The translations under genes and the position numbers were made by a program. Below the pieces are notes generated by a model, which worked only from the letters and a program-made list of their open reading frames with translations, made no database searches and was not told the origin of the DNA. This document shows positions 1-12,540 of a DNA stretch of 48,957 nt, one piece after another; position 1 is the first letter of the stretch, and the number at the start of each line of letters is the position of its first letter. Source of the stretch: a virus; the IMG/VR virus record IMGVR_UViG_3300042544_000528, positions 1-48,957 of that record; one strand, 5' to 3'.

Positions 1-294
1 CTCATACCCTTGAATTCCGTAAGCATTCCAAGATCCAATAAGATATTCTTTTATCTCTCTATAGAACTTTGGAAGTTCTTTATTGACACGTCCAATCTTG
101 TAACTACTTACAATCTTTTTTCTAAATAGATTATTGTTAGGTCTTTCAGCGAATATCATATAGTGACTAGCCGAAGAGGTTGATATTATGTTTGATATAG
201 CTTGGTCTACTTTATCATACGCCTGATCTACCTCATCGCAAGAACCCCCTATGTAGCATAGGGAGTCAGCATCTACAAGGATTATTTTATTCAT
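1..294 (-). CDS. 5'-3' exonuclease-like protein (FEN/PIN fold), N-terminal part
   Basis: Partial gene that runs off the left edge; 98 residues are visible from an ATG at 294. The N-terminus reads MNKIILVDADSLCYI: a hydrophobic strand followed by two aspartates (D8, D10), as in the first metal-binding strand of phage FEN-like 5'-3' exonucleases. Further on there is an FRK...YKIGR segment like the FR...YK..R motif of that family. These enzymes remove RNA primers or resect ends during replication and recombination. The start overlaps the stop of the ERF gene by four bases (ATGA), which suggests translational coupling and fits a recombination operon of SSB, annealing protein and exonuclease. The catalytic C-terminal acidic cluster lies outside the window, so the call rests on the N-terminus and context. 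Confidence 0.7.
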   Translation of the reverse strand, partial: MNKIILVDADSLCYIGGSCDEVDQAYDKVDQAISNIISTSSASHYMIFAERPNNNLFRKKIVSSYKIGRVNKELPKFYREIKEYLIGSWNAYGIQGYE

Positions 295-905
295 ATACCT
301 AACTCTTTCTTTTGTTGAGGTGTAACTTCATACTTCTCTAGCATCTTGATTGTAGCCTCTCTGTTTGACTCTAATGCCTTCTTAACAGCATTCATATCAG
401 AGATTGTAGGCTTACTAGCTTGACTTGAATCAGTAGCAGTAGGTTTTGATACAGGCTCTGGCTTACGATTTGGATTGTCAATATCGTCCTCGTCAGTACT
501 AATGTGGAAGTACTTAAGTAGGAAGTATCTCTCTGCATATGTTAATGCCGAGCCAAGACCTTTCTCCCAATCATTCTGACCATTCGCAGCGAAATAATTC
601 TCATCTTTCTCACCAGTCTCACAATCTATCCAAGTGAATCGCATAGTTGCTTTTGTAAGTATCTCTGACTTAAGACCATTCTTTGTTGTATAGTCTTGTC
701 TACTATTCTCGATCTCTAAAACCTCTTGCTTAAGGATAATTCCGTATTCATTCATAAGTGGTTTGATATGCTCTAATACTTTTGATCCTGATACATATTG
801 GTATCCAAATGATTTTGAATCCTTACCAAGTCCTACCACTCTTTTTTGAATCTCTAATAATTTTTGAAATAAATTCATCGTACTTTCTTTTTTTGTTGTT
901 GCCAT
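291..905 (-). CDS. erf: ERF-family single-strand annealing protein
   Basis: 204 residues. Residues 11-60 form an amphipathic N-terminal region, and residues 118-135 contain GSALTYAERYFLLKYFHI, the family signature in which a G-S-A-x-T-Y-A-x-R-Y core is followed by a hydrophobic stretch. An acidic stretch (TDEDDIDN) follows, and then a low-complexity Pro/Ser/Thr linker to a short charged C-terminal domain, the usual ERF architecture. ERF proteins coat ssDNA and anneal complementary strands in phage recombination and genome circularisation. The gene lies between ssb and the exonuclease, the expected partners. The start at 905 is used; an internal ATG at 878 would remove nine residues. A hairpin with a T-run lies just upstream, between ssb and this gene. 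Confidence 0.88.
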   Translation of the reverse strand: MATTKKESTMNLFQKLLEIQKRVVGLGKDSKSFGYQYVSGSKVLEHIKPLMNEYGIILKQEVLEIENSRQDYTTKNGLKSEILTKATMRFTWIDCETGEKDENYFAANGQNDWEKGLGSALTYAERYFLLKYFHISTDEDDIDNPNRKPEPVSKPTATDSSQASKPTISDMNAVKKALESNREATIKMLEKYEVTPQQKKELGI

Positions 906-918
906 AATTTGATTTGAT

Positions 919-947
919 TAAAAAGGGCTACCTATATGATAGCCCTT
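919..947 (-). terminator. Hairpin with T-run between ssb and erf (terminator/attenuator)
   Basis: On the minus strand AAGGGCTA (947-940) pairs with TAGCCCTT (930-923) around a 9-nt loop, and is followed by a T-run in TTTTTAATC. This is the form of an intrinsic terminator, 14 bases before the erf start. No second promoter is visible between it and erf, so it probably attenuates readthrough and makes SSB more abundant than ERF and exonuclease. Confidence 0.6.
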
Positions 948-975
948 GTAGTTGTGTTTTTAATGAAAAGCTTTT

Positions 976-1275
976 TTACCAAGGAAGGTCGTTAGCTTCT
1001 TCTTGTTTCTTAGTAGCTTTCTTGCTTAACTCTGCTTGTTGAACTTTGTCATCACTCCAAAGTTTCTTACCATTACCTAAGAAGTTTCGATTAGCCTTAG
1101 CCTCTCTTTCTTCTTTAGATTGGCTTTGCCAAAGAGATACATTGTTTCCGTACTGATCTTCGGTGTCGTTAACTGATAAAGTAACGTTAACATACTTACC
1201 ACCATTTTTTCCCTCAACGATTTGAGATTTGTCAATTTTTGTTAGGTCGATACTAACTGCTAATAATTGAGCCAT
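976..1275 (-). CDS. ssb: Single-stranded DNA-binding protein
   Basis: 99 residues from the ATG at 1275 (MAQLLAVSIDLTKIDKS). The reading frame extends upstream to 1329, but that extension lies in the leader of a promoter at about 1340-1370 and has no family similarity, so the inner start is chosen. The body has the compact strand-rich pattern of Bacteroidota phage SSBs (SQIVEGKNGGKYVNVTLSVN, then DQYGNNVSLW). A basic Lys-rich linker leads to an acidic/aromatic tip (NDLPW), analogous to the DDIPF tip through which SSBs recruit replication proteins. It binds unwound phage DNA during replication and recombination. It is the first gene of the right-hand end of the recombination operon with erf and the exonuclease. 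Confidence 0.85.
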   Translation of the reverse strand: MAQLLAVSIDLTKIDKSQIVEGKNGGKYVNVTLSVNDTEDQYGNNVSLWQSQSKEEREAKANRNFLGNGKKLWSDDKVQQAELSKKATKKQEEANDLPW

Positions 1276-1332
1276 AAAATATAATTTAATTGTTTTGCCT
1301 ACCTTGTTTTGTTGCTGTCGGCTATTCAACTT

Positions 1333-1370
1333 TAGATTACAAATATACTATTTATTATTTAATATACAAT
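1333..1370 (-). promoter_or_regulatory. Promoter of the ssb-erf-exonuclease operon
   Basis: Minus strand: TATATTTG (1347-1340) fits the Bacteroidota -7 element TAnnTTTG. TTG (1369-1367) lies 19 bases upstream, at the -33 position. The predicted transcript begins near 1333, about 60 nt before the ssb start. Confidence 0.65.
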
Positions 1371-1373
1371 AAT

Positions 1374-1541
1374 TTATTGCAGGTTTTTTTGAATTTCTTG
1401 GTAATACCAATCATCTCTACTCCAACTTTCTTTTAATGAATCAATGATTCTCTTGGTTTTATTGTATAAGTATATGTTTTCAGTCTGCTCTGCAAGATCC
1501 ATAATTTCTTGTAGCTCTGCGATAATTTGTGGTTTATTCAT
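1374..1541 (-). CDS. Small hypothetical protein, 55 aa
   Basis: Open frame from ATG 1541 to TAA 1374-1376; it begins MNKPQIIAELQEIMDL and ends YYQEIQKNLQ. It is mostly helical and charged, with a Trp/Tyr-rich C-terminal part (ESWSRDDWYYQEI). It is collinear with the early block, starts three bases after the preceding gene and stops just before the ssb promoter, so it fills an otherwise empty gap. No family recognised. Placement and a clean reading frame are the support. Confidence 0.55.
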   Translation of the reverse strand: MNKPQIIAELQEIMDLAEQTENIYLYNKTKRIIDSLKESWSRDDWYYQEIQKNLQ

Positions 1542-1544
1542 AGA

Positions 1545-1739
1545 TTAATTAAATAACATATCATACATTTCCTCTTTTAACTCTAGCTCATCCGTCTGAT
1601 TCATAATCATTGTTATGTCAGTTCCGTTGTAAAATACTGACTGAACTACTATCTCTGGGTTGTACTCTGGATCATTGTCGTAAACAACCTCGTACTCAAC
1701 CTCTACTTCCTGAAATCTGTAATTAAATATTCCCTTCAT
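1545..1739 (-). CDS. Hypothetical acidic protein, 64 aa
   Basis: An acidic small protein with a beta-rich N-terminal half (YRFQEVEVEYEVVY) and a helical acidic C-terminus (DELELKEEMYDMLFN). Its start overlaps the 3' end of the 123-residue gene by 17 bases, consistent with coupled translation in the early operon. Function not recognised. Confidence 0.65.
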   Translation of the reverse strand: MKGIFNYRFQEVEVEYEVVYDNDPEYNPEIVVQSVFYNGTDITMIMNQTDELELKEEMYDMLFN

Positions 1740-2094
1740 AATTCACATTGTTTTCTTTAAAAAATTCTTCAACACTAATAATTGTATATCCTTTCTTCTC
1801 GGCAAACTTTCTCCAATAGTTCTTGGCCTTTATATCTAATGCATCGCATATGTCTGCAATTCCGTTATACTTAACTTCTTCACCGCTAGGCGAAAGTGCC
1901 TTGATTACCTTATATGTTCTGCTGTCTGCATTAACATAGTCCTTTGGTCTTGTTGTTCCGTGTACTTTGACGTACTCAACTCCGTCAAAATCATCATCAG
2001 TAAACTTATTAAACTCCTTGTAATTAAGTTTGTTTAGGTGTTGCTTTCTAAGTATAGATGCAACCTCAAATAATGTAAATCTATTTTTATTCAT
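1723..2094 (-). CDS. Hypothetical protein with NUMOD1-like C-terminal segment, 123 aa
   Basis: Residues about 63-105 read TYKVIKALSPSGEEVKYNGI, then an alanine/aspartate-rich helix and a K-NYWRK segment. This pattern (a short beta-hairpin with SGE, then an 'xYxxIxDIxxAL' helix) resembles the NUMOD1/IENR1 DNA-binding modules seen near homing endonucleases, but no nuclease motif is present. The N-terminal half (MNKNRFTLFEVASILRKQHL) is helical and may also be a DNA- or RNA-binding helix-turn-helix. A role in early regulation is possible, but the family call is tentative. It overlaps both neighbours by a few bases. Confidence 0.65.
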   Translation of the reverse strand: MNKNRFTLFEVASILRKQHLNKLNYKEFNKFTDDDFDGVEYVKVHGTTRPKDYVNADSRTYKVIKALSPSGEEVKYNGIADICDALDIKAKNYWRKFAEKKGYTIISVEEFFKENNVNYEGNI

Positions 2095-2287
2095 CTTTTT
2101 TTGATTTTATTTTGTCAATCCAATAATCAGATCCGTCTTCAGATAAATGAAAGCTAAACCACGAAAATAAATCCATTTCGTTTGACGCTATAAGATACGC
2201 CAAGAAAGATTCATCGTGTTGTGATATTGTTTCATTTATTGCTTTAACTTGATCCATTCTACTTAATTCTTTAAAATTTAAACTCAT
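2087..2287 (-). CDS. Hypothetical protein, 66 aa
   Basis: Start set at ATG 2287 (MSLNFKELSRMDQ) because a GGGAGG Shine-Dalgarno-like site lies seven bases upstream, unusual in this phage where most start regions are only A/T-rich. A longer frame to 2302 begins inside that site. Acidic helical protein with an aromatic centre (DLFSWFSFHLSEDGSDYW). The ATG overlaps the stop of the upstream gene (ATGA). No family recognised. Confidence 0.65.
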   Translation of the reverse strand: MSLNFKELSRMDQVKAINETISQHDESFLAYLIASNEMDLFSWFSFHLSEDGSDYWIDKIKSKKDE

Positions 2288-2472
2288 ATTTTTACCTCCC
2301 AATTATTATTTATTAAACTACAATTTTTAAATCGACCTAGAGATAGGTCTCCTTTATCGTTTATGAATGTAAATCCGTATTGGTTACTCCATAGTACGCT
2401 ATACCACTTATCTCTAGTTATAGCCTTTCTAATTAAACTATTTGTTATGACTGACGTACACCTAACTTTCAT
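2284..2472 (-). CDS. Hypothetical small protein, 62 aa
   Basis: Begins MKVRCTSVITNSLIRKAITR and contains DKWYSVLWSNQYGFTFINDK: a small, probably all-beta domain of about 60 residues such as those found in many phage early genes. The frame can be extended to a GTG at 2493, but the ATG at 2472 is preferred. It overlaps the tiny Cys-rich gene upstream by 11 bases and shares an ATGA junction with the gene downstream. Function unknown. Confidence 0.6.
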   Translation of the reverse strand: MKVRCTSVITNSLIRKAITRDKWYSVLWSNQYGFTFINDKGDLSLGRFKNCSLINNNWEVKI

Positions 2473-2572
2473 CGCTTTCGTCTTCAAAATCACAATGCTC
2501 TAAGCAAGATGAACACAAATCACTCCATATGTGGTGTCTCTCTGCACCACAACAGTCACTATACTCTTCCAT
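2462..2572 (-). CDS. Tiny Cys/His-rich (zinc-binding-like) protein, 36 aa
   Basis: Open frame from ATG 2572 to TAG 2462-2464. It reads MEEYSDCCGAERHHIW, then SDLCSSCLEHCDFED. The arrangement CC..HH...C..C..HC, with an acidic tail, matches a type of mini zinc-ribbon protein common in Bacteroidota phages. It is collinear with its neighbours and overlaps the next start. Recognition is by cysteine spacing only; the biological role is unknown. Confidence 0.65.
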   Translation of the reverse strand: MEEYSDCCGAERHHIWSDLCSSCLEHCDFEDESDES

Positions 2573-2575
2573 ATC

Positions 2576-2791
2576 TTATTTATTAAATGTTTCGTTGTAG
2601 TATTCTTTTCCTGTTAAAATATAAGTGTAATTTGAAACACCTCCTGATTTTTTAGTTTGGTTTCCGTGTGCATCAATAATCTGTTGCTTTTCCATTTCCT
2701 TGGCTTTTTTAAACATATCAAAATCATCTTGATTAAATATATATGTTTTACTCATTTCTTCTTCTAACCATTCTACTGCTGTTTGTTTCAT
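2576..2791 (-). CDS. Conserved hypothetical flavobacterial phage protein, 71 aa
   Basis: Begins MKQTAVEWLEEEMSKTYIF; the middle contains the KAKEMEKQQIIDAHGNQ segment and the end reads EYYNETFNK. A small protein with this MKQTAVEWL...EMEKQQI(I/M)DA...YYNETF pattern recurs in Flavobacteriia phages and prophages as a conserved protein of unknown function. That recurrence supports the host assignment. Helical and charged, probably cytoplasmic. It follows the 52-residue ORF in the same operon. Confidence 0.75.
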   Translation of the reverse strand: MKQTAVEWLEEEMSKTYIFNQDDFDMFKKAKEMEKQQIIDAHGNQTKKSGGVSNYTYILTGKEYYNETFNK

Positions 2792-2826
2792 ATCTTATTT
2801 GTTTTTAAAATTGTTAGTCACTCTCA

Positions 2827-2985
2827 TTAATTTAAATAATGTAGTACCTCTACATTATGTAGCAACCTAGCTTGAAGTACAAGGCTACTAAAGTCTAGGC
2901 AGAGAAGTTCTGACCAAACATTTGTGCTTGTGTCAAAAACTATCATCTGCCAAAACTCGCTGTCTATTGTATTTATAAATACCAT
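2827..2985 (-). CDS. Possible small protein, 52 aa
   Basis: Open frame from ATG 2985 to TAA 2827-2829, beginning MVFINTIDSEFWQMIVFD and ending NVEVLHYLN. It fills the 200-base gap between two collinear early genes and starts six bases after the upstream gene. The composition is hydrophobic/acidic without a clear membrane segment. No family recognised, and the absence of any motif leaves it uncertain. Confidence 0.45.
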   Translation of the reverse strand: MVFINTIDSEFWQMIVFDTSTNVWSELLCLDFSSLVLQARLLHNVEVLHYLN

Positions 2986-2991
2986 AATTCC

Positions 2992-3174
2992 TTAGAATCT
3001 AAACACTACTTTCTCGATTAATCTTCTATTAAGAAGTTCCTTCGCTTTTCCGTATGGTATGCTCTCTTGGTCCATAAGGTCGTTTATAGCCTCTGAGTAC
3101 GCCTTTCTCTTTCTTTCTAGGTGTTCTACTACTTTGGATACATTTACTCTATTTGGGTTAATTCTTGGTCTCAT
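2992..3174 (-). CDS. Small basic helical protein, 60 aa
   Basis: Begins MRPRINPNRVNVSKVVEHLE and continues through RKRKAYSEAIN to LLNRRLIEKVVFRF. Strongly basic and helical, so nucleic-acid binding is plausible but unproven. It sits four bases after the 186-residue zinc-ribbon gene. No family recognised. Confidence 0.6.
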   Translation of the reverse strand: MRPRINPNRVNVSKVVEHLERKRKAYSEAINDLMDQESIPYGKAKELLNRRLIEKVVFRF

Positions 3175-3178
3175 AATG

Positions 3179-3739
3179 TTAATTGTTTAATTGTTTTTCA
3201 AAGTTATCTGAGTTTTCTTCAAATGTTAATAGGTTTTGGTAGTATTCTTCAAAGTCCAGTAGTTCTGATTCGCTGTAGTCTGAATGATTAAGCATCTCGT
3301 TTACCCAATCATCGAAGTAGTAGATATCACCTACCAATACTTCCTTTACTATACTCCCGTCTACTAGTCTAGATATAACACAACTCTCTATTGTGTTCTC
3401 TTGATTTCTAAGCGATACTATATCGGATACAAAGCTATCGTACTCTTCCTTATCCTTTAACGATCCACTATGCTCACCTACAGAGCCTTGATTCTTTATC
3501 CTGAAAGATCCGTATGGCTTGTCAATAATAAATTCTTCTCTGACTACATTATCAACAGCTAGTTCCTTGCTTTCATCTAGCTTTATCATATTTCCGTTTT
3601 CGTCTCTCTTTATAGATACTGAGTAATGATAACCGCAGTATGCACAATTAACATATTGCTCACCCGTTCTGTAGTAGAAGTCGCTAAATGCCTCTTGTTT
3701 GCAGTTAGGACAATCTATATAATCAATTACACTTCCCAT
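3179..3739 (-). CDS. Zinc-ribbon-containing hypothetical protein, 186 aa
   Basis: The N-terminus carries two Cys pairs, CPNC (residues 10-13) and CAYC (about 32-35), spaced like a classic zinc ribbon (CxxC-x18-CxxC). An acidic, mostly helical region of unknown fold follows and ends in a Glu/Asn-rich tail (NLLTFEENSDNFEKQLNN). A zinc ribbon in an early phage gene suggests nucleic-acid or protein binding. It is the largest gene of the small-gene array. No catalytic motif is visible. Confidence 0.7.
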   Translation of the reverse strand: MGSVIDYIDCPNCKQEAFSDFYYRTGEQYVNCAYCGYHYSVSIKRDENGNMIKLDESKELAVDNVVREEFIIDKPYGSFRIKNQGSVGEHSGSLKDKEEYDSFVSDIVSLRNQENTIESCVISRLVDGSIVKEVLVGDIYYFDDWVNEMLNHSDYSESELLDFEEYYQNLLTFEENSDNFEKQLNN

Positions 3740-3744
3740 AATAT

Positions 3745-3960
3745 TTATATTTTAGTTAATTCTAGTTCTTCCGCTTGAAAATCAATCGCATAAAAAATTT
3801 GCTCTATCGTTGCCTCGTTATCCAAGGCCTCAATTAAAACTTGCATTGCCTCTTCATCAGTGCAATCATAGTTTTGTTTTACGTCGTCTATGTGCCATAG
3901 GTTTACTACTTGATATCCTGCATCTTTCAAAACCTTTTTTGCTTTTTCTATTTCGTTCAT
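3745..3960 (-). CDS. Conserved hypothetical protein, 71 aa
   Basis: Begins MNEIEKAKKVLKDAGYQVVN and continues LWHIDDVKQNYDCTDEEAMQ. This KAKKVLKDAGYQV-x-NLWHIDDV pattern occurs in many Bacteroidota genomes and phages as a short all-alpha protein of unknown function. It is acidic and probably cytoplasmic. Part of the tightly spaced early operon, separated from its neighbours by four to five bases. Confidence 0.75.
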   Translation of the reverse strand: MNEIEKAKKVLKDAGYQVVNLWHIDDVKQNYDCTDEEAMQVLIEALDNEATIEQIFYAIDFQAEELELTKI

Positions 3961-3964
3961 AATA

Positions 3965-4216
3965 TTAGTTATTAAATTTATAATAATAGTCTTGCATTGT
4001 GTTTATAAGTTCTCTACCATAGGCGGTATGGAATCCATAGCTATGCGTGTAGTTATCTATTGGTGAATTCTCTAGCAATAGGTACATCATATCAAATTGA
4101 TTTTGATTAAACCTCTTACTTGCTTTTGTTATGGCCTTTGCCAAGGCACTGCAATTGTGTCTCGGCGTTTGCCCTAGTGTGTTAACTATATAATCTTTAA
4201 CTTGTGTTGCTCTCAT
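3965..4216 (-). CDS. Hypothetical protein, 83 aa
   Basis: Helical protein beginning MRATQVKDYIVNTLGQTPRH; the middle is rich in Asn/Gln and aromatic residues (FNQNQFDMMYLLLEN) and it ends YYYKFNN. No family recognised. Its start overlaps the stop of the 113-residue gene by four bases (ATGA), indicating coupled translation. Confidence 0.65.
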   Translation of the reverse strand: MRATQVKDYIVNTLGQTPRHNCSALAKAITKASKRFNQNQFDMMYLLLENSPIDNYTHSYGFHTAYGRELINTMQDYYYKFNN

Positions 4217-4554
4217 AATTTTATGTATTCAAATAGGTTACTATTAAATTTGTATGCGTCTCCCTTGTAATTAACATTAAAGGCAAGTACTTCCATAAAG
4301 TCGGTGCTAATAGCTATGCTCTCCTGTGTAAACAAGTTGCACCAATTTTCAGCGTCAGTTAATACCTTACTTTGTCTAGCGTATTTATATTCTAGCATAG
4401 CTACGAATGTAGGCTCAACACTACCATTGAATTCCTTGTCCTTAATGTAGTGGGCCATTAGCCTATACTCCGTTAGTGTAGCGAAGTAGTTAATTACCTC
4501 TTCCGCTGTCATTGGGTTGTTGTTTAACCCTAAATTAATTTGTAGTGCTTTCAT
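4213..4554 (-). CDS. Hypothetical protein, 113 aa
   Basis: Begins MKALQINLGLNNNPMTAEEV; contains an MTAEEVINYFATLTEYRLMA helix and a central acidic/aromatic segment. No motif, signal or membrane segment recognised. It lies between a short cysteine-bearing gene and the 83-residue gene, with an ATGA junction to the latter. Confidence 0.65.
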   Translation of the reverse strand: MKALQINLGLNNNPMTAEEVINYFATLTEYRLMAHYIKDKEFNGSVEPTFVAMLEYKYARQSKVLTDAENWCNLFTQESIAISTDFMEVLAFNVNYKGDAYKFNSNLFEYIKL

Positions 4555-4560
4555 TCTGTA

Positions 4561-4854
4561 TTAGTTTTTATAATCAATTACTTTTTCTTTGTTGAAATTA
4601 TTATTTTTAATTTCTCGTTCTTTATTGTTATCTCTACACATTGTGCAACAATAAAAAGTTTCCTCTGTTATTTCTTGTTCCGTTTCTATACTTGCTTGGT
4701 CGCAAATATCACAATAGATAGTATTCATATATTCTAATTTTTTAGATCCTAACTTCTTATTAATAAAGTCTTCCAACGTCGGAATACCCGACACCATAAG
4801 CGCAATGCGTCTTCTATTTAGATTGCTCGACATAATGCTCGTTTTTAGTTTCAC
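4561..4854 (-). CDS. Hypothetical protein with Cys pairs, 97 aa
   Basis: Residues about 48-51 (CDIC) and 69-73 (CCTMC) form a CxxC...CxxC zinc-ribbon-like pair embedded in an acidic segment. The N-terminal part includes GIPTLEDFINKKLGSKKLE, and the tail is Asn/Lys-rich. Two starts are possible, ATG 4854 and ATG 4833; both overlap the short membrane-peptide ORF upstream. Probably a small nucleic-acid- or protein-binding factor. The start is uncertain. Confidence 0.6.
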   Translation of the reverse strand: MKLKTSIMSSNLNRRRIALMVSGIPTLEDFINKKLGSKKLEYMNTIYCDICDQASIETEQEITEETFYCCTMCRDNNKEREIKNNNFNKEKVIDYKN

Positions 4855-4929: not shown

Positions 4930-5148
4930 TTAAAAATTAAAAGTTTCTATTTCCTTTTTTACGGCATTCATATCTTTTAAGCCGTTGATACTTCTGTAAA
5001 AATTTTGATATTCGCTATTGTAAACAACTTCATATCCCGATTTTTGTTTTGATATCTCTAACATACTGATATCATTGGTATTGTTTTTAAATAAATACGT
5101 TGTAGTATTTTCAAATTTATATTTTCTATAAGATTGAGTTAATAACAT
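4930..5148 (-). CDS. First gene of early operon, hypothetical protein, 72 aa
   Basis: The chosen start is ATG 5148 (MLLTQSYRKYKFENTTTYLF), 12 bases after the end of the hammerhead ribozyme. The frame remains open to a GTG at 5214, but that extension would translate the ribozyme core itself, so it is rejected. The protein is small and beta-rich with a charged C-terminus (KDMNAVKKEIETFNF). No family recognised. Being the first cistron behind a self-cleaving leader, its translation and mRNA stability would be the most directly affected by the ribozyme. Confidence 0.65.
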   Translation of the reverse strand: MLLTQSYRKYKFENTTTYLFKNNTNDISMLEISKQKSGYEVVYNSEYQNFYRSINGLKDMNAVKKEIETFNF

Positions 5149-5160
5149 AATAAAAATGTT

Positions 5161-5217
5161 TAAGTGTTTCGTCGTTCTGCGACTCATCAGTATAGGTAAC
5201 GCACCTATAGACACTTA
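5161..5217 (-). ncRNA. Type III hammerhead ribozyme
   Basis: Read 5'->3' on the minus strand. Stem III is TAAGTGT (5217-5211) with ACACTTA (5167-5161), 7 bp, open-ended. The cleavage triplet is G-T-C, with C17 at 5210. Stem I is TATAGGT (5209-5203) with ACCTATA (5197-5191), 7 bp, loop GCGTT. The core is CTGATGA (5190-5184). Stem II is GTCG (5183-5180) with CGAC (5174-5171), loop CAGAA. The second core strand is GAAA (5170-5167). Every invariant core nucleotide of the hammerhead is present and all three helices are perfect. Expected self-cleavage is between 5210 and 5209, leaving a 5'-OH on the early mRNA. It sits in the 5' leader, 12 nt before the first early gene. Confidence 0.93.
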
Positions 5218-5430
5218 TTTATTAATAAAGCAGTATTTGATTAAAACCTTATCCGAAAATTTGCCCTAGTATCTAAACTATAAAAGATGATTCGATTCTA
5301 TAGTTGCAACTAGTATTTTGTTGGCTTTCGTTGTATCCTACCCGTTAGGGTCTCGCCACAATAAAGATTAATAAACTTACTCTATTAATAAATACCAATA
5401 TTTCAAGGAACTCGTCGTTGTTTCATTTTG
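5218..5430 (-). ncRNA. Structured leader RNA upstream of the ribozyme
   Basis: Sequence between the predicted early transcription start (about 5430) and the hammerhead. It has no significant ORF. It contains a CCC-TAAC-GGG hairpin (about 5349-5340) and a longer stem in which AACTATA (5305-5299) pairs with TATAGTT (5282-5276), with an outer CTAG/CTAG pair (5313-5310 with 5269-5266). Cleavage by the hammerhead would release it as a roughly 220-nt RNA. Whether it is a functional small RNA is unknown. Confidence 0.45.
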
Positions 5431-5469
5431 ACACTGCAAACATACAACTATTTAAATTTAAATAACAAA
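5431..5469 (-). promoter_or_regulatory. Main leftward early promoter
   Basis: Minus strand: TATGTTTG (5444-5437) fits TAnnTTTG and is followed by C, as in strong Bacteroidota promoters. TTTG (5469-5466) lies 21 bases upstream at the -33 position. Predicted start of transcription is near 5430, giving a leader of about 280 nt before the first ATG. Confidence 0.7.
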
Positions 5470-6233
5470 TATGTATATGTTAATATTTTGTTAAAATTTG
5501 TTAAGGCCTTATTTTATTGGGGTTCACAGAGGTAAAAAAATGTATGTATATATAAAATGCTAAATTTGTATACATAAATACTCTGTCAGACCCTATGTTT
5601 AAAGGATTTTCAATTATCTTTTCTTTTTGGTATCTATATACTACAAAAGGGTAAAAGTGTCTTAAAAGGGCTAAAAACTATCTTAAATTGAATAACTATA
5701 TAATGTACCAAAGTAAAAATGTATAGATATCTTATCAATCGTAATTCATAGAGTGCGAGTACTTTATGTATTCATATCTCTTATATAGTATCCCTGAATT
5801 GTATATTGATTTATAAGTATTGAGGGTAAATTGGTTTTTCCCTATAGGTTTTGTGTGGGTATCCCTCACCAATAAAGACTTCCCTCTCAATCAAAAAATA
5901 CCAAATGGTTATCGAGTATCAAAATGTTTTATAGGTTGCTGTCGTAAAACGTAGGTTGAGTGGGTAGGTTATACACAACGATAGGGTAAAAGGCTAAAAG
6001 TTTGGAGAGGGTCATTTCAAAAGTTACCCCCGTATGCTTTGTAGATTGGTTTTGGGTGCAGGGGTGTAGATCGTTATGTGGGGGTAGAACCCCAACAGTC
6101 TAATTAAGTCCAAAGAATATGAAACGAAAATCTTGTGTATCTCACACAGAGATATAAAGATTGAAGTGGATATATAAAAGTGTAAAGTACTTTATAATGA
6201 GGTATTAGAAATATATAGTACCTGAATATAAAC
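5470..6233. other. Non-coding divergent control region
   Basis: About 0.76 kb with no ORF that I would accept on either strand. It is very A/T-rich on the left. From about 5820 rightwards the plus strand becomes G-rich, with recurring short blocks such as GGGTAAA (5650, 5824, 5985) and GGGCTAAAA/AGGCTAAAAG (5668, 5990), and a small hairpin GGGG-TAGAA-CCCC (about 6081-6093). It separates leftward early genes from rightward genes, a usual location for a replication origin or regulator binding sites, but no defined iteron array or known origin was recognised. Confidence 0.4.
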
Positions 6234-10651: not shown

Positions 10652-10901
10652 ACTCTACAATTACTACATTTTCGTATCCCATAACTATGTATTCGATTCC
10701 CTCGTAGTTAATCGGGTATGTTCGGTGTCTGTCAAACCAAACAATGTCTCCTATACCAACTTTATCAATATTCTCTCCAATTGCGATAACTTCACCTTTG
10801 TGGAATTTAATATCTTGACCATCTCCAAGATAAAGGCCGCTACTACTCTTTACGTCTTCCTTTATCTCCTTAACTAAAATGTTACTAAGAACTACTTTCA
10901 T
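10650..10901 (-). CDS. groES: Co-chaperonin GroES (Cpn10)
   Basis: 83 residues. The first strand is MKVVLSNILVKEI. The mobile loop region (EDVKSSSGLYLGDGQDIK) carries the hydrophobic tripeptide-like GLYL that corresponds to GIVL of bacterial GroES, the contact to GroEL. It is followed by the family pattern KGEVIAIG and the VGIGDIVWFDRH segment, ending in a final strand (ENVVIVE). Slightly shorter than host GroES (about 95 residues). It caps the GroEL ring during folding. It lies downstream of groEL with a 17-base overlap, the reverse of the usual groES-groEL order, and stops inside a bidirectional terminator. Confidence 0.9.
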   Translation of the reverse strand: MKVVLSNILVKEIKEDVKSSSGLYLGDGQDIKFHKGEVIAIGENIDKVGIGDIVWFDRHRTYPINYEGIEYIVMGYENVVIVE

Positions 10902-12459
10902 TGCTTCTCTTATGTGTTATTGTTGTGTTTGTTAATAAAACTGTTGTAGCTACACTTGCAGCATTTTCTAAGGCTAATCTAATAACCTTTGATGGATCTA
11001 TAATACCCTTCTCAAACATATCTGCGATTTCATAATCCTTAACGTCATATCCGTAGTTGTAATCAGAAACCAATAGGTCTGCTTCAATATCGCTTAGAGA
11101 TACACCTGCATTATTCAATATAGTGCGCATAGGGGCCTTAATTGACTCAAGTAGACATCTATATCCTTTTGATGTGGATTGAAGCTTTAGAGAGGCGTTA
11201 TATAGTGCTAAACCACCTCCTACAACAACACCTTCAGAGATTGCACTCTTAACTGCGTTAATTGCATCATCAACACGGTCAAGCTTCTCTTTAGTTTCTA
11301 CCTCTGTTGTTCCACCGACCTTAATCACAGAAACACCACAAGCAAGCTTAGAGATTCTGTCTTTTAAATATTCCTTCTCAAGATTGTTGTTTGAATTCTT
11401 GATTACTTTGTTTAACTCTTCAATCTTTGATTGAACCCTTTCCGCATTAGGCTTTTCGTTAAAGAATAAAACGGTATCCTCTTTAGTCACTACTAGTCTA
11501 CTACATTTGCCTAGTAATTCATCCATATCATACCCATCGATATTTGTAGATGTATCAAGGTCAATAATTAAACCACCAGTTGCTAAAGAAATATCTGTTA
11601 AGTAATCTCTTCTCTTCTCTCCAATACTTGGTGGGATAATTGTAGCTACCTTAAGTCCATTCTTTTTGTTTGCGTATAAAACCTTCATAACCTCAAACTC
11701 CATTTCAGAGATAATTAATAACTCTTTATTGGCTTTGTGGCAGTACTCAACAACAGGTAAAAGTTCTCTGATGTTTTGAAATCTTCTATTTGACAATAGA
11801 ATCAATGGATTATTATTGAACTCGATAGTTCTGTTCTCTGGTTTATTCACAAAACCTTCAAACTCGTAACCTCTAGCTACAGGCATACCATCGATAAAAT
11901 CAACATATGTATCAGAATTATCTGACTGCTCATACGATACAACTCCATTCTTACCAGCTGAAATAAATGCATTAGCGATAATTTCACCAAGCTCTGAATC
12001 ATTATTAGCAGATATTCTAGCTACGTCAAATAAGTAAGAGTCATCAACCTCTTTAGATGTTTCCTTGATATATTTAATAACATCTTTAACACCCTCTTCA
12101 ATTCCGTTCTTTAAATCTATTGCAGACTCACCATTACTTAAGTATTTCTGACTATTATCAATAATAGACTTAGTCAATACAGCGGTTCCTGTTGTTCCAT
12201 CACCAGCCTCGTTAACTGTTTTTCTACAAGCTTGTTTTACAAACTCACAGCCTAAACTCTCTGTTGCATCCTCTAAAAAAATAGAATCAGCCACAGATAC
12301 GCCATCTTTTGTTACGATAGGAAGTCCACCAGGACTCTCGATAAGTACTGTTCTTCCTCTATATCCCATAGTTGAAGATACAGCATCGCAAATGGTAGAT
12401 ATCCCTTTAATTAAGGGTTCTTTTGCGTTTTCATTAAATTTAACTTCTTTAATTATCAT
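10885..12459 (-). CDS. groEL: Chaperonin GroEL (Cpn60)
   Basis: 524 residues from ATG 12459 (MIIKEVKFNENAK). With this start the catalytic aspartates fall on exactly the E. coli positions: D52 (TKDGVSVA), D87 (GDGTT, 86-90) and D398 (RVDDA); VVGGGLALYN puts GGG at 414-416. All ATPase determinants are therefore intact and the protein is full length, lacking only the C-terminal Gly-Met tail (it ends in a Ser-rich tail). The frame extends to 12516, but those extra residues are translated promoter DNA and are discarded. Divergent from host GroEL in the apical and intermediate domains, as expected for a phage lineage. Co-transcribed with groES. Likely client: a virion protein (inference). Confidence 0.95.
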   Translation of the reverse strand: MIIKEVKFNENAKEPLIKGISTICDAVSSTMGYRGRTVLIESPGGLPIVTKDGVSVADSIFLEDATESLGCEFVKQACRKTVNEAGDGTTGTAVLTKSIIDNSQKYLSNGESAIDLKNGIEEGVKDVIKYIKETSKEVDDSYLFDVARISANNDSELGEIIANAFISAGKNGVVSYEQSDNSDTYVDFIDGMPVARGYEFEGFVNKPENRTIEFNNNPLILLSNRRFQNIRELLPVVEYCHKANKELLIISEMEFEVMKVLYANKKNGLKVATIIPPSIGEKRRDYLTDISLATGGLIIDLDTSTNIDGYDMDELLGKCSRLVVTKEDTVLFFNEKPNAERVQSKIEELNKVIKNSNNNLEKEYLKDRISKLACGVSVIKVGGTTEVETKEKLDRVDDAINAVKSAISEGVVVGGGLALYNASLKLQSTSKGYRCLLESIKAPMRTILNNAGVSLSDIEADLLVSDYNYGYDVKDYEIADMFEKGIIDPSKVIRLALENAASVATTVLLTNTTITHKRSNESSS

Positions 12460-12481
12460 AAAATTTATATTTTTTATAATG

Positions 12482-12489
12482 CAAATATA
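12482..12489 (-). promoter_or_regulatory. groEL-groES promoter
   Basis: Minus strand TATATTTG followed by C; the predicted transcript starts about 12475, giving a short A/T-rich leader to the ATG at 12459. A TTTG lies 24 bases upstream. The element is back-to-back with the rightward promoter at 12500-12515. Confidence 0.65.
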
Positions 12490-12499
12490 CACTTTTTTT

Positions 12500-12515
12500 A
12501 TTTCGTATCTTTGCA
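12500..12515 (+). promoter_or_regulatory. Promoter with 16-bp ATTTCGTATCTTTGCA core
   Basis: Exact copy of the core at 7401, 33069 and 33944, preceded by a T-run and without a -33 TTTG. It drives the lysis and fibre unit, with about 20 nt of leader to the ATG at 12541. Confidence 0.7.
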
Positions 12516-12540
12516 AAGATTTATTAAAAAGATTTTATTT

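Follow-up and report, generated by a model that had tools for sequence, protein, structure and literature searches.

The window analysed here is the whole of IMG/VR record IMGVR_UViG_3300042544_000528 (48,957 nt). Its closest cultured relatives are the Elemovirus phages (68 records, host Flavobacterium sp. BAL314), whose vB_FspP label follows podovirus naming; all 68 records matched a related query over most of its length. Near the left end of the window, a promoter-like pair, a folded leader and a hammerhead ribozyme precede an operon of small genes:

5466..5469, minus strand: TTTG, -33-like promoter element (from the sequence)
5437..5444, minus strand: TATGTTTG (TAnnTTTG), -7-like promoter element (from the sequence), 21 nt from TTTG
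5210..5431, minus strand: leader RNA, predicted 5' cleavage product with an approximate start; one fold gives a closed domain next to stem III
5395..5411, minus strand: boxA-like GTTCCTTGAAATATTGG near the leader 5' end, 1 mismatch of 17 to GTTCTTTGAAATATTGG
5161..5217, minus strand: type III hammerhead ribozyme (RF00008, model R1, covariation)
5217-5211/5167-5161, minus strand: stem III, UAAGUGU/ACACUUA, 7 bp
5210, minus strand: H17, a C (from the sequence)
5209..5210, minus strand: predicted cleavage site between C17 (5210) and N1.1 (5209), set by the hammerhead fold
5209-5204/5196-5191, minus strand: stem I, UAUAGG/CCUAUA, 6 bp (8 in the MFE structure)
5190-5184, minus strand: core strand CUGAUGA (from the sequence)
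5183-5180/5174-5171, minus strand: stem II, GUCG/CGAC
5170-5167, minus strand: core strand GAAA (from the sequence)
5149..5166, minus strand: translation initiation region, with the stem III 3' strand to 5161 (-13) and then an A-rich unpaired stretch
4930..5148, minus strand: first gene of the early operon (ORF, 72 aa, start ATG 5148-5146)
1..4854, minus strand: remainder of the early operon within the window, about 17 small genes with Erf at the 3' end

The operon downstream of the ribozyme appears to be of the early, replication type, a reading supported by gene content only: the Erf ssDNA-annealing protein is encoded at its end (291-905, minus strand), and the matching Elemovirus operon includes primase/helicase, 5'-3' exonuclease and ERF. 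The 72-aa product of the first gene showed no family match in PHROGs and Pfam searches. Elsewhere in the window, a phage-encoded Cpn60/GroEL-type chaperonin (10885-12516, minus strand; PF00118, E 1.5e-53) lies on the strand opposite to that of its neighbours, and 6121-6170 (plus strand), within the divergent control region, gives a weak match to the Flavo-1 RNA (24.3 bits, cut-off 42).

The ribozyme at 5217-5161 is a genuine type III hammerhead, for which self-cleavage is predicted. The full core (C3 U4 G5 A6 N7 G8 A9, G12 A13 A14, A15.1-U16.1 and H17) is found in the sequence and the cmscan alignment, and fold and descriptor agree on all three helices and on a stem III that opens to the flanks. 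The earlier note had placed a complete hammerhead of this type in the leader of the early operon, 12 nt ahead of the first gene. Every element lies on the minus strand where the note had put it, and the distance of 12 nt between the ribozyme end and the ATG was confirmed from the sequence; a stem I of 7 bp, against the 6 bp found, was a small slip. The proposal is further borne out by Rfam, by an independent model, by covariation, by synteny in Elemovirus and by the genes of the operon. The covariance search suggested in the note, with the hammerhead III model, gave 49.6 bits for RF00008 against a gathering threshold of 48.5 (E 4.9e-8), the sole match over its cut-off in an Rfam scan of the whole window. 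The MFE structure of the isolated 61-mer is the exact hammerhead fold (z -2.56), and co-folding the leading 332 nt of the presumed transcript, at 37 and 20 C, leaves it intact. A perfect-hammerhead descriptor covering all three topologies matched once in the window and not at all in 2.94 Mb of dinucleotide-randomised sequence, which rules out a chance origin; no additional hammerhead was found in the window, even with a relaxed descriptor.

Covariation was assessed on 35 distinct related ribozymes of equal length over 17 pairs, in which 91.3% of the cells are paired. Both sides change in 14 of the 17 pairs, with 155 double-change cells against 41 in shuffles, a count in which stem I pairing had partly served to select the sequences; no such selection acted on three of the stem II pairs or on stem III, apart from U16.1 and the C next to it. 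The covariation score was 0.67, compared with 0.06-0.13 when the partners were slid. The covariance model R1, trained on 30 of the 35 ribozymes without the window or the Elemovirus-like copies, gave 78 bits for the window (E 1.6e-18) and 73 bits for the Elemovirus copy. Of the two loops that may form a tertiary contact, loop I is commonly UGYGUUA, and the search pattern itself prescribed CAGAA for loop II. The Elemovirus counterpart (UAAGCGUA / CUGAAGA / GAAACGUUUUA) is unannotated and lies directly ahead of the first early gene; its stem sequences are changed relative to the window and the pairing is retained. It was absent from the Rfam report even at E 5.

The distribution of the ribozyme was followed with a pattern made of the core plus loop II (CTGANGAGNNNCAGAANNNCGAAAC), which excludes other loop II sequences by construction. 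It gave 90 matches in viral contigs and, over the 257 billion bases of a prokaryote genome collection, only 8. The three stem II pairs that the pattern leaves free all pair in 90 of 91 matches (chance expectation about 5%), and in 87 of the 91 stem I is closed, stem III is open and the cleavage site is of the NUH type. Where an ATG-started ORF is nearby, A15.1 stands 15-24 nt from the ATG in 68 of 81 distinct sites with a mode of 18 nt, the spacing found in the window as well. A second sample was chosen by the Erf protein instead of the ribozyme pattern. Of the contigs in this sample that extend to the leader, the four closest to the window (75-100% identity; L288, L293, L296 and L297) all have the hammerhead, another long contig, L294, ends short of any leader-like gap, and the hammerhead is missing from most of the more distant Erf phages. 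Near position 11559 of L107, a class B leader (described below) is followed by a hammerhead-like fold with the core CCGATGA, in which U4 is changed and which may be a decayed ribozyme or a variant; since the leader stays in place despite this change, the ribozyme would not be indispensable everywhere, a point against the insulator reading set out below. The layout of promoter, leader, hammerhead and early gene recurs in dozens of further phages, in many of them with another folded leader, and seems to have gone unnoticed so far; as most of these ribozymes score under the Rfam cut-off, they are missed by standard annotation.

At about half of the loci the descriptor found one to four more hammerheads of type I, II or III on the same strand, some of them visible to Rfam at sub-threshold scores. 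Most of the 43 downstream copies examined begin at or within the last codons of the preceding gene, and the next ATG follows after about 16 nt (median). In L062, L030, L044, L085, L021, L016, L068 and others, the early-operon strand carries an array of 2-5 hammerheads, with types I, II and III represented; the ribozymes in these arrays start in overlap with the preceding gene's stop codon, and the next ATG again lies some 16 nt beyond. Elemovirus carries a second hammerhead of type I, RAGATH-1-like (27.8 bits; L106 17290-17347, minus strand; L003 5003-5060, plus strand), which is present in Elemovirus A, B, C and E and was not found in D and F. The CDS elemo79Aphanotate_43, annotated over it on the opposite strand, is probably spurious.

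Upstream of the ribozyme, both elements of the TTTG/TATGTTTG pair that the earlier note had named as promoter were found, and we take TTTG/TAnnTTTG to be the Bacteroidota promoter consensus. TAnnTTTG also lies upstream of many related leaders, and a similar TTTG/TAnnTTTG-like pair lies upstream of the Elemovirus copy. Ahead of the early promoter stands a further conserved block (GTAAGTTAGTTGGTCACACGTTACGC...GATAAGAT; in L042 at 28-141 of the upstream stretch, and also in L028, L034, L067, L071 and L091), possibly another RNA or control element. On the other side of the ribozyme, the 3' strand of stem III lies at about -19 to -13 relative to the ATG and adjoins an A-rich stretch, both in the window and in AT-rich relatives. 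The first ATG of the window has A at -3, -11, -12 and -13, and of the 54 AT-rich relatives 94% have A at -3 and about 75% have it at -12/-13. In F. johnsoniae, initiation is favoured by an unstructured region from -20 to +20 and by A at -3, -6, -12 and -13 (PMC6847099).

The leader of the window (MFE -43.6, z -2.24) ends where stem III begins, and in the full-length fold its domain is closed and apart from the hammerhead; no diverged homologue of it was found, L039/L288 being an identical sister that gives no covariation, so that the structure of the window leader comes from one fold. When compared with other leaders by BLAST, only its promoter box was matched, and it matched neither the class A nor the class B leader model described below and belongs to neither class. 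Between the TAnnTTTG promoter and the ribozyme, the relatives have a structured RNA that stops 0-6 nt ahead of stem III, and at least two leader classes show compensatory changes. These structured leaders, like the wide distribution of the layout and the downstream hammerheads, go beyond what the earlier note had described. Class A (e.g. L067, L080, L050) has 31 double-change cells against 7.6 in shuffles, a count that uses a hand-drawn structure and ten clean sequences and leans towards that structure; the poor MAFFT/RNAalifold structures obtained for a mixed class A set are attributed to module insertions. Class B (L062, L078, L046 and others) has 33 double-change cells against 9.4 shuffled. 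The class A model R2 scores Elemovirus at 47 bits and L139 at 106 bits, and leaders of neither class overlap any Rfam match. A pattern for class A only gave 19 genuine members, all 19 with a hammerhead about 95-114 nt downstream; among them is L139, which the hammerhead pattern had missed and which lies outside the hammerhead-selected set. Additionally, in the phage pair L062 and L075 the promoters are 98% identical, the ribozymes 87% and the opening 200 nt of the first gene 100%, but identity drops to 48% across the leader, which is class B in L062 and a third variant in L075; judged from these identities, the difference is an exchange of leader cassettes. Unrelated leader families stand before a similar hammerhead in further sets of phages (L012, L016, L021, L068, L083, L086; L008, L037, L082; L023, L066, L073, L081, L093), some of them with Shine-Dalgarno sequences, which would point to hosts outside Bacteroidota.

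Near its 5' end the window leader carries the box GTTCCTTGAAATATTGG, which recurs in the leaders of L013, L029, L044 and L085 with 1-3 mismatches. GTTCCTTGAAATATTGG may be a boxA, an identification drawn from a short match and suggestive only. The TT pair of the box varies less in non-coding matches (20 of 25). A general partnership of the box with the hammerhead found no support: of 121 matches to a boxA pattern, only 4 lie 700 nt or less from a hammerhead, and three of these 4 are the window itself or were known before. GTTCTTTGAAATATTGG was also observed in non-coding phage stretches that resemble the fronts of tRNA genes (L190, L205, L208, L218, L223 and others), where it may be boxA or part of a promoter. 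For the role of the leader, whose place and structure are reminiscent of the put RNA of phage HK022, antitermination is the leading guess of this analysis.

The proposed mechanism is as follows. Host RNA polymerase would start at the TTTG/TATGTTTG promoter and produce the folded leader of about 220 nt, then the hammerhead and then the early mRNA. The hammerhead would fold on emerging and cut between 5210 and 5209, which would free a leader ending in a 2',3'-cyclic phosphate and leave an early mRNA that starts with a 5'-OH, immediately followed by the stem I and stem II hairpins. In the cleaved mRNA the first start codon would lie 12 nt past stem III, and loss of the stem III 5' strand would open the region from -19 to -13, just upstream of the A-rich initiation site. 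Once cut off, the structured leader could not interfere with the beginning of the early mRNA by folding onto it, blocking it or destabilising it, and the released RNA would act separately, most likely on elongation as an antiterminator. Observed directly are the sequence and its fold, the conservation and covariation, the constant spacing to the start codon and the swapping of leaders; we infer cleavage, insulation, an effect on translation or stability and a function of the leader, and we regard it as likely that cleavage at 5210/5209 splits the leader from the early mRNA and that the ribozyme is a natural insulator. The argument for insulation is anatomical: as the stem III strand adjoins the A-rich start, and F. 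johnsoniae prefers an unstructured region from -20 to +20, the ribozyme could serve as an insulator for any leader. Cutting the leader off would not cost it such a function, as the put RNA of phage HK022 needs no tether to the transcript and acts on terminators at a distance of 10 kb (PMC9378689).

That the hammerhead is a product of chance, a decayed relic or a coding artefact is scarcely credible. A coding origin could be argued from the frame that the earlier note had seen running into the ribozyme from a GTG, and the ORF at 5214-4930 (minus strand) does read through it. The note had reasoned that related phages which keep the protein extension and lose the pairs would speak against a ribozyme, and the reverse was found: a TGA within stem II of Elemovirus closes the frame of the first gene with the pairs kept, so the conserved thing is not a protein extension, and the frame across the ribozyme is open in 19 and closed in 35 of the 54 AT-rich relatives. 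Together these rule out a coding extension, and the covariation and the empty search of randomised sequence count against the remaining forms of this explanation. Very improbable, too, is a natural aptazyme in which the leader, stacked on stem III, would act as a sensor and turn cleavage on or off. The leader domain does abut stem III directly, and the closing helix of class A ends a few nt before it; however, near-identical ribozymes are preceded by unrelated leaders, and in the fold stem III does not need the leader to form.

The two other readings accept cleavage and differ in which product matters. The 5'-OH and the two 5' hairpins might shield the early mRNA from decay that depends on its 5' end, which we consider unlikely. 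By the fold, cleavage must leave a product whose 5'-OH lies at the foot of stem I, and 5'-end-sensing nucleases such as RNase E prefer a 5'-monophosphate. In B. subtilis, however, the 5'-OH generated by glmS triggers decay, so such an effect could have either sign in Flavobacteria, and protection would leave both the fixed distance to the ATG and the swapped structured leaders unexplained. It is quite possible, at somewhat less than even chances, that the leader is the main product, with the ribozyme setting the exact 3' end of a small ncRNA (antiterminator, host-takeover or anti-defence) and the processing of the mRNA as a by-product. This would fit leaders that are structured, show compensatory changes and end just ahead of stem III, their swapping between near-identical phages, the hammerhead downstream of every class A pattern member (L139 included), the boxA-like box in the window and a few others, and the place of the leader directly behind the early promoter, like that of the untethered put RNA (PMC9378689). 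Against it, the leaders match neither put nor any Rfam family, the boxA call comes from a short match, and the fixed ATG distance and the hammerheads right before downstream genes favour the mRNA side. The insulator reading is preferred.

Both the family of the window ribozyme and the kind of place in which it lies are thus known already. It is like RF00008 in its core residues, three helices, open stem III, NUH site and score over threshold; it differs in belonging to a phage group with a small stem II and a CAGAA loop that is mostly sub-threshold and unannotated. It also resembles in placement the RiboJ-type synthetic insulators, in which a self-cleaving hammerhead between promoter or leader and ribosome entry site removes the upstream sequence; RiboJ was engineered from a satellite RNA ribozyme, whereas the hammerhead of the window is natural. 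The earlier note had said that hammerheads are known in some phages, and Perreault et al. (2011, PMC3088659) describe them in the haloviruses HF1/HF2 and in prophage clusters. The HF1/HF2 hammerhead, HHphage, lies 13 nt upstream of the early helicase, the first ORF of a polycistron, and its cleavage site coincides with the mapped 5' end of the mRNA; the window is similar, with its ribozyme a few nt (12) ahead of the start codon of the first early gene. HF1/HF2 differ as archaeal head-tail viruses with an unusual core that has a two-nucleotide insertion, and the passages considered describe no structured, swappable leader for them (PMC3088659). The prophage clusters, as presented there, have hammerheads flanking genes in operons, much as relatives of the window carry several hammerheads on one strand that would cut the operon into short mRNAs; unlike the clusters, the window has the leader copy only, and the ribozymes of its relatives overlap the upstream stop with the ATG about 16 nt on. 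Lastly, put is a two-stem RNA that binds the zinc-binding domain of RNA polymerase, and the window leader agrees with it in position. Like HK022 put and the boxA-nut leaders, it follows immediately on the early promoter of a long operon, as an RNA with a predicted structure and a boxA-like box; unlike them, it has no detectable similarity to put and is joined to a ribozyme, which the known systems are not known to have (PMC9378689).

In the open-access literature searched, nothing specific on hammerheads in tailed phages was found beyond Perreault 2011. As far as this literature shows, the hammerheads of cultured Flavobacterium phages, the many contigs of the same layout and the exchangeable structured leaders are new. 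The role of bacterial and phage hammerheads has been a question ever since many were discovered in 2011, and Elemovirus on Flavobacterium sp. BAL314 offers a hammerhead in a fixed place together with a natural comparison set, which makes that role directly testable. With the case evenly poised, Bacteroidota phages may share a modular control region composed of an early promoter, an exchangeable structured RNA (probably an antiterminator or takeover RNA) and a hammerhead that excises and insulates it, often with more hammerheads at gene junctions. If so, the structured leaders, already candidates for new RNA classes, would be new classes of functional phage RNA, and phages would have invented the ribozyme insulator that synthetic biologists built, allowing different structured RNAs to be placed behind one early promoter.
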